From: Mycolicibacterium insubricum
Lineage (GTDB): Bacteria; Actinomycetota; Actinomycetes; Mycobacteriales; Mycobacteriaceae
Direction: 5' to 3'
Length of the DNA stretch: 64,000 nucleotides
Assembly: GCF_010731615.1 (NCBI RefSeq)
Contig: NZ_AP022618.1
Location: forward strand, 930,001 to 994,000
The position numbers and the translations under genes were made by a program. Positions 894 through 31,141 of this stretch are shown one piece after another. The notes beneath the pieces were generated by a model that saw only the letters and a program-made list of their open reading frames with translations, did no database searches and was not told where the DNA came from. How positions within the stretch are numbered: the first letter of the stretch is position 1; the number at the start of each line of letters is the position of its first letter.

Positions 894-1502
894 ATGATCG
901 ACGATCTGTGGCTGCGGTGGCTGGTCACCGCACTTTTCCTGGTCAGCGCGGCCGAATGCGGTATCGCGCTGGCCCGGGGCGAACACCGCCGCGCCGACCT
1001 GGTTGACCAGGGGCTGCACATCCTGATGGCGGTCGCGATGGTGGCGATGGCCTGGCCGGCCGGCGCCGCACTCCCGACCACCGCGCCGATGCTGATCTTC
1101 CTGGCCGCCGCGGTCTGGTTCGGACTCCGGACGCTGTCGGTGCGCGGCGGTCGGACCGTCAACGCGTATCACTGCGTGATGATGCTGGCGATGGTCTGGA
1201 TGTACGCCGTCATGGGCGGTGGGTTGACGCCGGTTCCGGCCGACGGCGGGACCTCGGCCGTCGGGCACGCCGCGCACCACGGCCACGCGGGTGCCGCCCC
1301 CGGAATGCACGCGCACACCCCACCGCTGATCACCGGAGTGAACTGGATCTTCACGGTTCTGTTCGCCGTCGCCGCGCTGTGGTGGCTCTACCGGCTGATC
1401 GTCTGTCGGCGATCCGGGGGCAGCGGGTGGGACGGTGCCGGTGACGCCGGCCAGGCGATGGCGGCCGCGGGCATGGCCGTCATGTTCGGGGTCATGCTGT
1501 GA
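894..1502 (+). CDS. DUF5134 integral membrane protein with a histidine-rich loop
   Basis: A protein of 202 residues with about six hydrophobic segments, for example LRWLVTALFLVSAAECGIAL at the N-terminus and WIFTVLFAVAALWWLYRLIV near residue 160. A loop at about residues 124-143 contains GHAAHHGHAGAAPGMHAH, which could bind a metal. The architecture matches actinobacterial DUF5134 proteins, whose function is not established. ATG 894 was chosen because the hydrophobic N-terminus follows directly; GTG 891 is equally possible. Its stop TGA overlaps the GTG of the PepSY gene (GTGA), so the two are probably translationally coupled and work together. A role in copper or iron handling is inference from the histidines and the neighbours. 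Confidence 0.75.
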   Translation: MIDDLWLRWLVTALFLVSAAECGIALARGEHRRADLVDQGLHILMAVAMVAMAWPAGAALPTTAPMLIFLAAAVWFGLRTLSVRGGRTVNAYHCVMMLAMVWMYAVMGGGLTPVPADGGTSAVGHAAHHGHAGAAPGMHAHTPPLITGVNWIFTVLFAVAALWWLYRLIVCRRSGGSGWDGAGDAGQAMAAAGMAVMFGVML

Positions 1503-3061
1503 CCTCTCCCGAGCGTCGCGCCGACGCGGCCGTGCTGCGGCGCATCTGGCGACTGCATTTCTGGGTCGGGTTGTTCGCCGCGCCGGTCCTGGTGACCCTC
1601 GCCTGTTCCGGGCTGGTCATTCTCTACAGCCAGCCGATCGACGATGCGCTCAACGGCAACCTGCTGCTGGTCGCCCAGGGTCCGGAGTCGGTGCCGCTGG
1701 ACGAACAGGTGACCACCGCCAAGCACCAGCTGGGCGCCGACTACGTCCTGGACGCCGTCGTCCCGCCGGCCGGGCCCGGCCGCTCCACCCGGGTCGACTT
1801 CCGCGCCCCGGACGCCGCCGAACACGGGGAGTCCGAGCTCACCCAGGTGTTCGTCGACCCGTACACCGGCAACTACCTGGGCCAGCGTGAATCCCTTTCC
1901 GGACTGGTCGGTTTCGCCAACCAGGTGCACCGGATGTTCGGCAACGACGGGCCCACGATTGCGCTGCCGTCGCTCGGGCACCTGATCAACCCGGCCGCCT
2001 ATCCGGACGCCACCATCGGGGTCGGCGTGGCCAACCTGTGGTTCGAACTGACCGCCGTGTGGATCCTGGTTCTGCTGCTCACCGGCATCTACCTGTGGTG
2101 GCCGCGCGCTATCGAGAGTGCCAAACCCCTGCTGAAGATCCGGTGGCGCCGCGGCGGCCGGATCCGGTGGCGTGACCTGCACGCCGGGACCGGCATCGTC
2201 ATCTCGGTCCTGCTGATCTGCTACATCCTGTCCGGGCTGACCTGGACCCGGTACTGGGGAGAGAACTGGCGGGCGGTGTCGGCCACCGTCGCTCCCTCGC
2301 TGAGTGTGTCCGCGCCGTCGACCCCGGCGACGTTGGGCGACTACGACCGCCTCGGCCGGCGCATCGCCTGGGCGGCCACCGACGACCCGATCTACGCCTC
2401 GCATCCCCGCGGGCCGTCCGCCGCCACCCTGTCGCTGGCCGATATCGACCGGATCGCCAAGGCCGAGAACATGGTTGCCGGCTATTCGATCATCCCGCCG
2501 GCGGACTCGGTGGTGGACGGGCAGATCGTGTACGGCAGCTACGCGGTGGTCAACCCCTGGCCGCAGCGGCTCTCCGAGCAGCGCACGCTCTACCTCGACC
2601 GGTTCAGCGGAGCCACCATCGCCAACGCCACCGCCGCGCAGGACGGTGCACTGTCGCGCCTGACCAGCCTCGGCATCGACATGCACATGGGGCACCAGCT
2701 CGGTCTGTTCACCCGGATCACCGCCACCCTGGCATGTCTGGGGGTGCTGACCATGGTGGCCACCGGGTTTCTGATGTGGTGGAAGCGACGGCCGGCCGGC
2801 CGCACCGGGCTACCCGGCCCGGCCGGGGACCGGACCCGCGCCGACACCCCCACTCGCACCGTCGTCGGCCTGGCGATCGCGGCGTTGGTGCTGAGTGTGC
2901 TGTTCCCGGCGTTCGGGGTGTCACTGCTGCTGGTCGTCGCCGTCGAGCGGGTGCTGGAGCTGCGGCGCCGTGCCGACCGCAATGGTGCGGCAGAGGCATT
3001 CGGCGAGCATCTGATTGACGAGGACGGCGACGTCGCACTGGGCACCGAGGGCGGGGGCTAG
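1499..3061 (+). CDS. PepSY-associated transmembrane (PepSY-TM) protein
   Basis: A protein of 520 residues. It opens with RRIWRLHFWVGLFAAPVLVT, the hallmark first segment of PepSY-TM proteins. Further membrane segments are at about 180-200 (LWFELTAVWILVLLLTGIYL), 230-250 (WRDLHAGTGIVISVLLICYI), 405-425 and 450-470, with large extracytoplasmic loops carrying PepSY-like regions (VFVDPYTGNYLGQRESL). Conserved histidines precede several segments (HRMFG, DLHAGTG, DMHMGHQLG). Some family members, such as FoxB and PiuB types, are linked to ferrisiderophore uptake or reduction at the membrane. That role here is inferred from the adjacent isonitrile lipopeptide operon. The GTG start overlaps the preceding stop. 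Its TAG shares four bases (CTAG) with the stop of the convergent MmpL gene. Confidence 0.88.
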   Translation: MTSPERRADAAVLRRIWRLHFWVGLFAAPVLVTLACSGLVILYSQPIDDALNGNLLLVAQGPESVPLDEQVTTAKHQLGADYVLDAVVPPAGPGRSTRVDFRAPDAAEHGESELTQVFVDPYTGNYLGQRESLSGLVGFANQVHRMFGNDGPTIALPSLGHLINPAAYPDATIGVGVANLWFELTAVWILVLLLTGIYLWWPRAIESAKPLLKIRWRRGGRIRWRDLHAGTGIVISVLLICYILSGLTWTRYWGENWRAVSATVAPSLSVSAPSTPATLGDYDRLGRRIAWAATDDPIYASHPRGPSAATLSLADIDRIAKAENMVAGYSIIPPADSVVDGQIVYGSYAVVNPWPQRLSEQRTLYLDRFSGATIANATAAQDGALSRLTSLGIDMHMGHQLGLFTRITATLACLGVLTMVATGFLMWWKRRPAGRTGLPGPAGDRTRADTPTRTVVGLAIAALVLSVLFPAFGVSLLLVVAVERVLELRRRADRNGAAEAFGEHLIDEDGDVALGTEGGG

Positions 3062-30188: not shown

Positions 30189-31141
30189 GCAACCGAGGCT
30201 TCACCGTCGTCTATCCAGGCCCCGCGCGACTGACCCTGGTGGCACTGTTCGCCATCCCGGCGGCCATGGCCTACCCGTGGCACACCGACATCCAGCGCTG
30301 GATCCTCGGCGTCGCGGTGGCCGTGGCACTGCTGGCGCTGAGCTGGTGGCGCGGTGCGCATCTGAGCACCCAGGCGTGGCGGCGGTTGGCCATGCTGGTT
30401 CCGCGGCGAGGGGGGCACGGGGTGCACGCCGGCCTGGACCGCGGCGCCACCGACGCGCGCACCACCGCGGTGCTGTCGGTGCGCGGCGGCCCGGAGGCGA
30501 CCGAACTGCCGCTGGCGCTGATCGCCGGCTACCGCGACCGCTACGGCGTGCGCGCCGACGGGGTGCGGATCGTGCAGTGTGAAACCGCCGACGGGACTTC
30601 GATTTTCATCGGTCTGACTATCGCGGCGGCGCCGAACCTCGCCGCCCTGCAGGCCCGATCGTCGGCGATTCCGCTGTGGGACACCGCCGAGGCGGCCGCC
30701 CGCCGTCTTGCCGACCAGCTGCGCGAACTCGGCTTCGACGCGGTGCCCGCGGTGGAGATCGAGGTGCCCGAGCTGCTCGGCCCGGAGGCCAAGGCGCGCT
30801 GGCGCACGGTGTCCGACGGCGGCGCCGGCTACGTCACCGGCTATGCGCTGCAGGCAGATTCGGGCCTGCCGGAGGCCATCGACGAACTTTGGGCGGCCGA
30901 TTGCACCGAACGCTGGACGGTCGCCGAGATCCGGGGTGACGGCGTGGCGGTGGCCGCGGCCGTGCGCACCGACGACGCGCCGGAGTCCGACGGCTCCGGG
31001 CTGATCGCAGTGCGCGGACGTCAGGCCGCGGCCCTGGCCGCCCTGCACCCGATGTCGGTTCGCCCCGTGCTGGCCGCCTGCGGCCCGATCGAGCTGCTCG
31101 ACGACTTGTCCTGGCCGGTCGCGGAGGCGCTCAAAGCATAG
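30185..31141 (+). CDS. eccE3: ESX-3 membrane component EccE3
   Basis: A protein of 318 residues with two N-terminal membrane helices (about 12-30 and 36-54, the second being WILGVAVAVALLALSWW) and a cytoplasmic/peripheral domain typical of EccE. It forms the outer rim of the membrane complex and is the last gene of the ESX-3 operon. GTG 30185 overlaps the mycP3 stop (GTGA). The gene ends 15 bases before the convergent TetR gene. Confidence 0.95.
   Translation: MSNRGFTVVYPGPARLTLVALFAIPAAMAYPWHTDIQRWILGVAVAVALLALSWWRGAHLSTQAWRRLAMLVPRRGGHGVHAGLDRGATDARTTAVLSVRGGPEATELPLALIAGYRDRYGVRADGVRIVQCETADGTSIFIGLTIAAAPNLAALQARSSAIPLWDTAEAAARRLADQLRELGFDAVPAVEIEVPELLGPEAKARWRTVSDGGAGYVTGYALQADSGLPEAIDELWAADCTERWTVAEIRGDGVAVAAAVRTDDAPESDGSGLIAVRGRQAAALAALHPMSVRPVLAACGPIELLDDLSWPVAEALKA

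Follow-up and report, generated by a model that had tools for sequence, protein, structure and literature searches.

The 64-kb window of the Mycolicibacterium insubricum genome analysed here, which lies on a single contig of 4,577,045 bp, holds between positions 894 and 31141 an operon of the ppe1-nrp type (PPE1, isonitrile-forming oxygenase, FcoT, FadD10, acyl carrier protein (ACP) and nonribosomal peptide synthetase (NRPS)) directly beside the genes of the ESX-3 type VII secretion system (Table 1), and the explanation favoured on balance is a copper-acquisition locus in which a chalkophore operon and ESX-3 would be joined. The two blocks adjoin in three genomes and are linked in three layouts; PPE1 is of the PPE4 type, PE5 and PPE1 complement each other, one promoter-like element stands before both PPE1 and eccA3, and the genome carries sigC. 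The parts are known, and what appears new is their coupling, through their position, a secretion substrate that they probably share and the promoter-like element; the sequence evidence is good, and from it we infer regulation, secretion and transport. The original prediction had described a complete operon of these genes, 1.3 kb from eccA3, with HMA, MmpL, PepSY_TM and DUF5134 genes at its far end, and every named gene is indeed present with its frame open; the adjacency to eccA3 stands as well, whereas the wording of the orientation does not, since the operon turns its 5′ (PPE1) end towards eccA3 and a methyltransferase gene separates the two.

Linkage was surveyed in 396 genomes of the genus, many of them drafts, 88 of which carry FcoT (an eccB3 match was missing in one of these), and was scored where FcoT has an eccB3-type gene no more than 20 kb away. 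By this measure 8 of the 88 show the two blocks linked, as do 4 of the 27 among them that are single contigs, three of the four coming from one clade; our own estimate of the chance expectation among these 27 is ~0.2 (40 kb of ~5.3 Mb in each). The comparison of nrp and eccA3 gene order that had been proposed returns the arrangement of the window in three genomes and two further layouts. In type A (the window, G394 and G175) the operon is divergent from ESX-3; HMA, MmpL, PepSY_TM and DUF5134 are ordered in G175 as in the window, without the methyltransferase gene, and only HMA is present among them in G394. Type B, found in the rapid growers G018, G172, G184, G156 and G355, runs in one direction from ESX-3′ through MmpL to PPE1 and the rest of the operon, constitutes a second ESX-3-like copy in four of the five genomes, and has HMA after the operon in four of the five. 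In type C, represented by Segniliparus rugosus (L068, G431), nrp is followed after ~0.1 kb by eccA3 in the same direction; no FcoT was found in the other Segniliparus genome, G402, presumed to be S. rotundus. Over the 78 loci, a near full-length MmpL match lies beside the operon in 15.

In a tree of EccC3 (28 rows), type A represents the canonical ESX-3 of the clade it belongs to, type B groups separately (96/96) from the canonical copies of these genomes, and S. rugosus pairs with a Mycobacteroides row as its sister (100/100). A tree of 36 rows, built by a quick method from four operon proteins, places type A, four type B rows, G355 and S. rugosus in separate positions. Because these placements differ, we read the linkage as having arisen at least three times; one old linkage, lost many times, is a possible alternative to several origins. 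The eccB3 of the window is at most 65% identical to those in 148 genomes of the genus, and 71% and 68% identical to those of G394 and G175, as would befit a divergent mycobacterial lineage. The presence of the operon in several fast growers, such as M. septicum, M. peregrinum and M. sphagni, contrasts with its description in part of PMC7924339 as not conserved in fast-growing mycobacteria.

Several minor features of these loci may be recorded. All five type B genomes have, between MmpL and PPE1, a divergent gene resembling methyltransferases (MPxIDARHLDG start), and similar reverse-strand starts occur upstream of PPE1 in several other loci; the copy of G172, compared with the window methyltransferase as a candidate homologue, gave no significant match. 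In G018 (contig C28), G172 and G184 (C16) (loci L090-L091, L102-L105), a second oxygenase-FcoT-FadD cluster faces the nrp operon a few kb away, with proteins 47-49%, 35-38% and 34% identical to those of the window, and is probably a second isonitrile pathway; two FcoT matches are also found in G157, G277 and G361. Second ESX-3-like copies with contiguous eccB-eccC-eccD and no PE gene between them occur in L118, L120, L122, L124 and L125 (G073, G022, G069, G143 and G372), the EccC being nearly identical to the canonical copy in three of them. In L040 (Mycobacterium sp. 852002-51163), three eccA-like stretches (41-42%) follow nrp at 18055-20442, and no PPE1 was found in that locus. The ESX-3 block of G402 is rearranged and lacks PPE4, with eccA3 inverted and a FadD-like gene between eccA3 and eccB3.

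PPE1 is a likely cargo of ESX-3, and the original claim that ESX-3 exports it is borne out to that extent, through its PPE4-type domain and the complementarity of PE5 and PPE1. The PPE domain matches PPE4 of the PE5-PPE4-EspG3 structure 6uuj at 1.2e-62, and PPE15 and PPE41 at 2.6e-23 and weaker; in a quick tree of 41 PPE domains (8 of the 38 inner branches starred) the PPE1 proteins fall in one clade with a support of 92, among PPE4-like PPEs. The window operon has no PE gene. In the gene maps PPE4 was not found in the six type B and C ESX-3 blocks, and it could not fit between PE5 and espG, since this gap measures only 0.7-0.8 kb in every type B block as well as in S. rugosus. The whole genome of G156, with one eccB3-type match (E up to 1e-80), gave two matches each for PPE and PE: one neighbouring pair on contig C10, and PPE1 with PE5 on C11. 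This count suggests, by elimination, that PE5 is the partner of PPE1. A PE5-like gene (60-66%) directly follows nrp in seven Mycobacteroides-group loci, with PPE1 ~2 kb beyond it in the three that reach that far. The window genome has 10 PPE matches (two being neighbouring pieces) and three PE matches, two of these beside other PPEs, so that PPE1, PPE4 and several more PPE4-like proteins would share PE5. A single-chain model of PPE1, with a mean pLDDT (predicted local distance difference test) of 61.8, reaches good confidence only over the PPE domain and some of the hydrophobic helices, as far as about residue 273, and is of low confidence beyond.

The operon and ESX-3 are further tied by the promoter-like element GGAAC-N17-CGACYA, which was defined from PPE1 promoters and not from published SigC promoter letters. 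It is present in 48 of 57 PPE1 upstream regions, and the looser form GGAAC-N16..18-CGAC in 56 of the 57 (the miss being L042); the window contains exactly two copies. For eccA3, the pattern GGAAC-N17-CGAC[CT] was sought within 300 bp before the gene in the linked genomes, in 50 of the 80 unlinked FcoT-bearing genomes and in 45 FcoT-free genomes; G007 was dropped for too little upstream sequence, and G349, whose last letter is A, was scored as a miss. The element precedes eccA3 in all nine linked copies (type A 3/3, type B 5/5, S. rugosus 1/1), in 24 of the 50 unlinked FcoT-bearing genomes, in 2 of the 45 FcoT-free ones (both ~265 bp away), and in none of the four canonical copies of two-copy genomes. 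The reversed pattern gave 0 in each group, and the reverse strand 0/99 in the other groups and 4/9 in the linked ones, where divergent promoters lie close. The spacer and last letter had been set after the type A and B promoters were viewed, which makes the unlinked genomes the fairer test, the pattern being fixed beforehand only for those outside a matrix scan that had covered 40 upstream regions (36 from non-type-B genomes). For unlinked FcoT-bearing against FcoT-free genomes, Fisher's p is 1.4e-6, relatedness not included.

When the rows were split by clade, post hoc and after the tree had been seen, the element was found before eccA3 in 29 of 33 FcoT-bearing and 0 of 21 FcoT-free rapid-grower and basal rows, and the four tested rows of the Mycobacteroides group all have it. 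Element and Zur box (at most two mismatches) are mutually exclusive in the unlinked FcoT-bearing rows, the box occurring in 0 of 24 with the element and 20 of 26 without. A score matrix trained on 34 unlinked PPE1 promoters, whose training sites score 11 to 39, gives 20 to 24 before eccA3 in G175, G018, G156, G355 and S. rugosus and 11.9 in G172 and G184; FcoT-free genomes score 0.0 at best, canonical copies 3.2 at best, and a score of 14.2 is reached in M. leprae, which lacks the element. Further instances of the element were found at the start of copper-type P-ATPase genes, in three type B genomes of which one was scanned by Pfam, and upstream of DUF5134 genes in G355 and G175.

A perfect 12-bp palindrome, GTTCCCGGGAAC (window 15196-15207), is located at the -35-like box of the PPE1 element, a box that could thereby be read in the direction of the methyltransferase gene as well. 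The strict form of the element is also conserved across the three type A genomes ~0.1 kb from a second PepSY_TM gene, from which it points away (L245 3683 +, L246 4741 +, L247 5944 -); no gene was recognised downstream of it.

Several observations weigh against a functional coupling of the two blocks. An independent-pairs test on the EccA3 tree (100 rows) yielded 9 pairs, of which on average 3.2 agreed, 0.0 disagreed and 5.8 showed no difference, a result that is not significant (p ~0.25, underpowered). By the same post hoc split, the clade that contains M. leprae, for which 'slow growers' serves as a label, has the element before eccA3 in 0 of 22 FcoT-bearing and 2 of 24 FcoT-free rows. The matrix scores at eccA3 of the window (6.5) and of G394 (4.3) are below those of the training sites, and over the whole window genome (G000) the full pattern occurs 12 times against 18 for its reversed control, and is thus meaningful only by position. 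The FcoT-free G060 has the element ~350 bp before eccA3, just past the limit, and four other Segniliparus PPEs sit inside the PPE1 clade. ESX-3 is not among the SigC-induced M. tuberculosis genes in part of PMC7924339, and the isonitrile genes are up while ESX-3 and mycobactin genes are strongly down in M. abscessus biofilms grown in synthetic cystic fibrosis medium (part of PMC8586431), so in this species other signals can at least override the element. In favour of a coupling, joint induction of PPE1 and ESX-3 genes was seen in three M. tuberculosis mutants (part of PMC10956863), which establishes a co-response and not its cause. That 80 of the 88 FcoT-bearing genomes, drafts included, are unlinked within 20 kb, together with the M. 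leprae clade and the opposite regulation in M. abscessus, would suit an operon that simply landed by ESX-3 in the ancestor of a small clade, the blocks being separate in work and regulation and PPE1 leaving the cell otherwise. Such a neighbourhood without function seems rather improbable, though it is the strongest of the alternatives, given the linkage in three layouts, the missing PPE4 where PPE1 is linked in types B and C, the PE and PPE count of G156, and the element before every linked eccA3 and no canonical copy of the same genomes.

Regarding the regulator, the sigma factor of the shared element and the operon is probably SigC, and their metal probably copper rather than iron or zinc. 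The window genome has sigC (NF007231, 253 bits against a cut-off of 219), and among 148 genomes of the genus sigC is above the cut-off in 35 of 35 with FcoT and in 57 of 113 without, lying within 15 kb of FcoT in 19 of the 35. In M. tuberculosis, SigC drives ppe1-nrp and ctpB (part of PMC7924339); as described in part of PMC9600254, the ppe1-nrp operon responds to copper and not to zinc starvation, nrp, fadD10 and ppe1 mutants are sensitive with respect to copper and not zinc, and PPE1 is needed for growth in low copper. The eccA3 element might instead be the promoter of another sigma factor or regulator, bound neither to SigC nor to copper, with ESX-3 and the operon meeting in a general envelope-stress response; the definition of the element without the published SigC promoter letters and the further extracytoplasmic function sigma factors of the genome (10 Sigma70_r2 matches) would fit, but the way sigC accompanies FcoT, often nearby, and the element at copper-type P-ATPase genes, as SigC controls ctpB in M. 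tuberculosis (part of PMC7924339), make this unlikely.

IdeR- and Zur-box-like sites, judged against consensus letters, bear on the choice of metal. Before eccA3, IdeR-like sites are present in type A 3/3, in canonical copies 4/4 and in type B 1/5 (G156, without a second ESX-3-type eccB), and S. rugosus has a perfect Zur-box match there; in the window, a search upstream of PPE1 returned neither kind of site. The chalkophore block thus has the appearance of a copper system, and ESX-3 that of an iron and copper system or, in S. rugosus, of a zinc and copper one. The sites before eccA3 of the window and of S. rugosus would be in line with a single iron/zinc super-locus, IdeR and Zur controlling both blocks, as would the zinc 'kupyaphores' reported for this product class. 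Since the window PPE1 has no such sites, IdeR-like sites before eccA3 are lost in four of the five type B ESX-3 copies, and operon and mutants respond to copper and not to zinc (part of PMC9600254), we regard it as quite improbable. The notion of one metal super-locus in the original prediction is retained as one functional locus, on the layout in three genomes and the two further layouts; the shared promoter-like element and the recurrence of MmpL beside the operon also speak for the prediction, and iron or zinc as the metal of the operon finds no support. An assembly error joining two loci at 15.1-15.3 kb, for which no point was found, can be set aside as next to impossible, as the window genome is a single contig and the diverged, single-contig G394 and G175 have the identical divergent junction.

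For the copper-acquisition locus preferred here, we infer a mechanism in which the PPE1-to-NRPS operon would make a diisonitrile lipopeptide chalkophore, to be exported by MmpL, while ESX-3, with PE5 as partner and EspG3 as chaperone, would export PPE1 to the cell envelope, where it would take part in the uptake of the copper-loaded chalkophore, the released copper being handled by the HMA, PepSY_TM and DUF5134 proteins. The operon and ESX-3 would share an element acting as a SigC-type promoter, so that copper starvation could raise both together, and ESX-3 would keep its iron-box-like sites for the siderophore role. More tentatively, and a little short of what we would call probable, ESX-3 may serve more than iron and zinc: in many mycobacteria and Segniliparus it could be part of a SigC-driven copper module exporting PE5-PPE1 for chalkophore uptake, and the duplicated ESX-3 of some rapid growers, without PPE4 and iron-type boxes, a dedicated chalkophore ESX, the canonical copy staying on iron. 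This would provide a case of a secretion system duplicated and then re-assigned from one metal to another.

Compared with the known ppe1-nrp diisonitrile chalkophore clusters (Rv0096-Rv0101, M. marinum, Streptomyces ScoA-E), the window operon has the same genes in the same order; its NRPS is single-module, like the one described for M. marinum and in contrast to the longer nrp of M. tuberculosis (part of PMC7924339), and it differs in adjoining ESX-3 and in the HMA, MmpL, PepSY_TM and DUF5134 genes at its far end. The ESX-3 block resembles known ones in having eccA3-eccE3, PE5, PPE4, espG3 and mycP3 together, with IdeR-box-like sites before eccA3, and departs from them in the PPE1-type promoter element and, in types B and C, in the loss of PPE4 with PPE1 in the same block. 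The SigC copper-starvation regulon of M. tuberculosis (ppe1-nrp, ctpB) is matched by sigC and by the element before the window PPE1 and at type B copper-type P-ATPase genes, but in many other species ESX-3 seems to be an addition to it. Type B is akin to the second ESX-3 copies and plasmid ESX-3 precursors of PMC4791881 (in part) as a second ESX-3-like copy in four of five genomes, and unlike them is fused to MmpL and the chalkophore operon, lacks PPE4 and carries the promoter element of the operon. Within a literature search that covered mainly open-access papers, and these in part, no study was found to connect the chalkophore cluster with ESX-3. The main text of PMC9600254 contains none of the words type VII, secretion and ESX-3, so no export route for PPE1 is proposed there; the arrangements described here name a candidate route (ESX-3), partner (PE5) and switch (the SigC-type promoter element).

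Table 1. Genes and sequence elements of the locus, in window coordinates.
Feature	Position	Strand	Basis and remarks
DUF5134 membrane protein, His/Met-rich	894-1502	+	Pfam PF17197 5.2e-34; open reading frame (ORF) from 819; counterpart in G175
PepSY_TM protein	1499-3061	+	Pfam PF03929 5.7e-60; 77% in G175
MmpL transporter	3058 to ~5889	-	Pfam MMPL 3.3e-204; TIGR00833 above cut-off; start uncertain, ORF to 6141
HMA metal-binding protein, CopZ-like	~5877-6188	-	Pfam HMA 9.7e-11
Single-module NRPS (C-A-T-R), 1400 aa	6209-10411	-	Domain matches and motif
Loose element match before HMA-MmpL (weak)	6258-6284	-	Similar site at nrp 3′ end in G394, G175; loose pattern 1.6 chance matches per 64 kb
ACP	10384-10617	-	Pfam PP-binding 2.9e-07
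FadD10	10610-12175	-	NCBIfam NF004515 765.6 bits (cut-off 726)
FcoT (ScoD-type)	12172-12726	-	Pfam FcoT 1.9e-54, above cut-off; ScoD equivalog model 130.9 bits, below cut-off 250
Isonitrile-forming oxygenase/decarboxylase (ScoE-type)	12723-13592	-	NCBIfam NF049937 471.6 bits (cut-off 400); PDB 9p9n 7e-163
PPE1	13627-15096	-	Pfam PPE; PPE4 of 6uuj 1.2e-62
Element GGAAC-N17-CGACTA before PPE1	15173-15200	-	Motif search
S-adenosylmethionine-dependent methyltransferase	15221-16123	+	TIGR00027 273 bits (cut-off 93.55)
Zur-box-like site before eccA3	16137-16151	.	3 mismatches; 2 matches in window against 0.07 expected, the other inside fadD10
Element GGAAC-N17-CGACCA before eccA3	16217-16244	+	Motif search; same place in G394, G175
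Two IdeR-box-like sites before eccA3	16296-16314, 16325-16343	.	5/19 mismatches each; similar in G394 (two), G175 (one)
eccA3	16389-18230	+	TIGR03922 796.9 bits (cut-off 466.65)
eccB3	18227-19765	+	Pfam EccB 1.6e-161
eccC3	19762-23751	+	Open frame; EccC3 tree
PE5	23748-24059	+	Pfam PE 3.5e-19
PPE4	24059-25624	+	Pfam PPE and PPE-PPW
Gap, expected site of esxG-esxH	25625-26336	+	Position only; esxG and esxH not assigned singly
espG3	26337-27296	+	Pfam EspG 1.3e-48
eccD3	27352-28776	+	Open frame; named by position and matches across mapped genomes
mycP3	28773-30188	+	Open frame; named by position and matches across mapped genomes
eccE3	30185-31141	+	Open frame; Pfam EccE 5.8e-07

Among the features of Table 1, the ESX-3 block comprises eccA-E, mycP, espG and PE/PPE genes, and FcoT has one match in the whole window genome. 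In the NRPS, adenylation (495-862) and thioester reductase (1050-1341) domains score below whole-protein cut-offs, as expected for parts; the carrier domain was matched, and the condensation domain was recognised only through an HHLLLDG motif read from the sequence. Elsewhere in the window, beside a tRNA-Gly gene (53449-53522), a low-GC stretch (0.56-0.58) at 51539-53322 carries a DUF4411 gene and an IrrE/M78-peptidase gene and looks like integrated toxin-antitoxin-like or mobile cargo.

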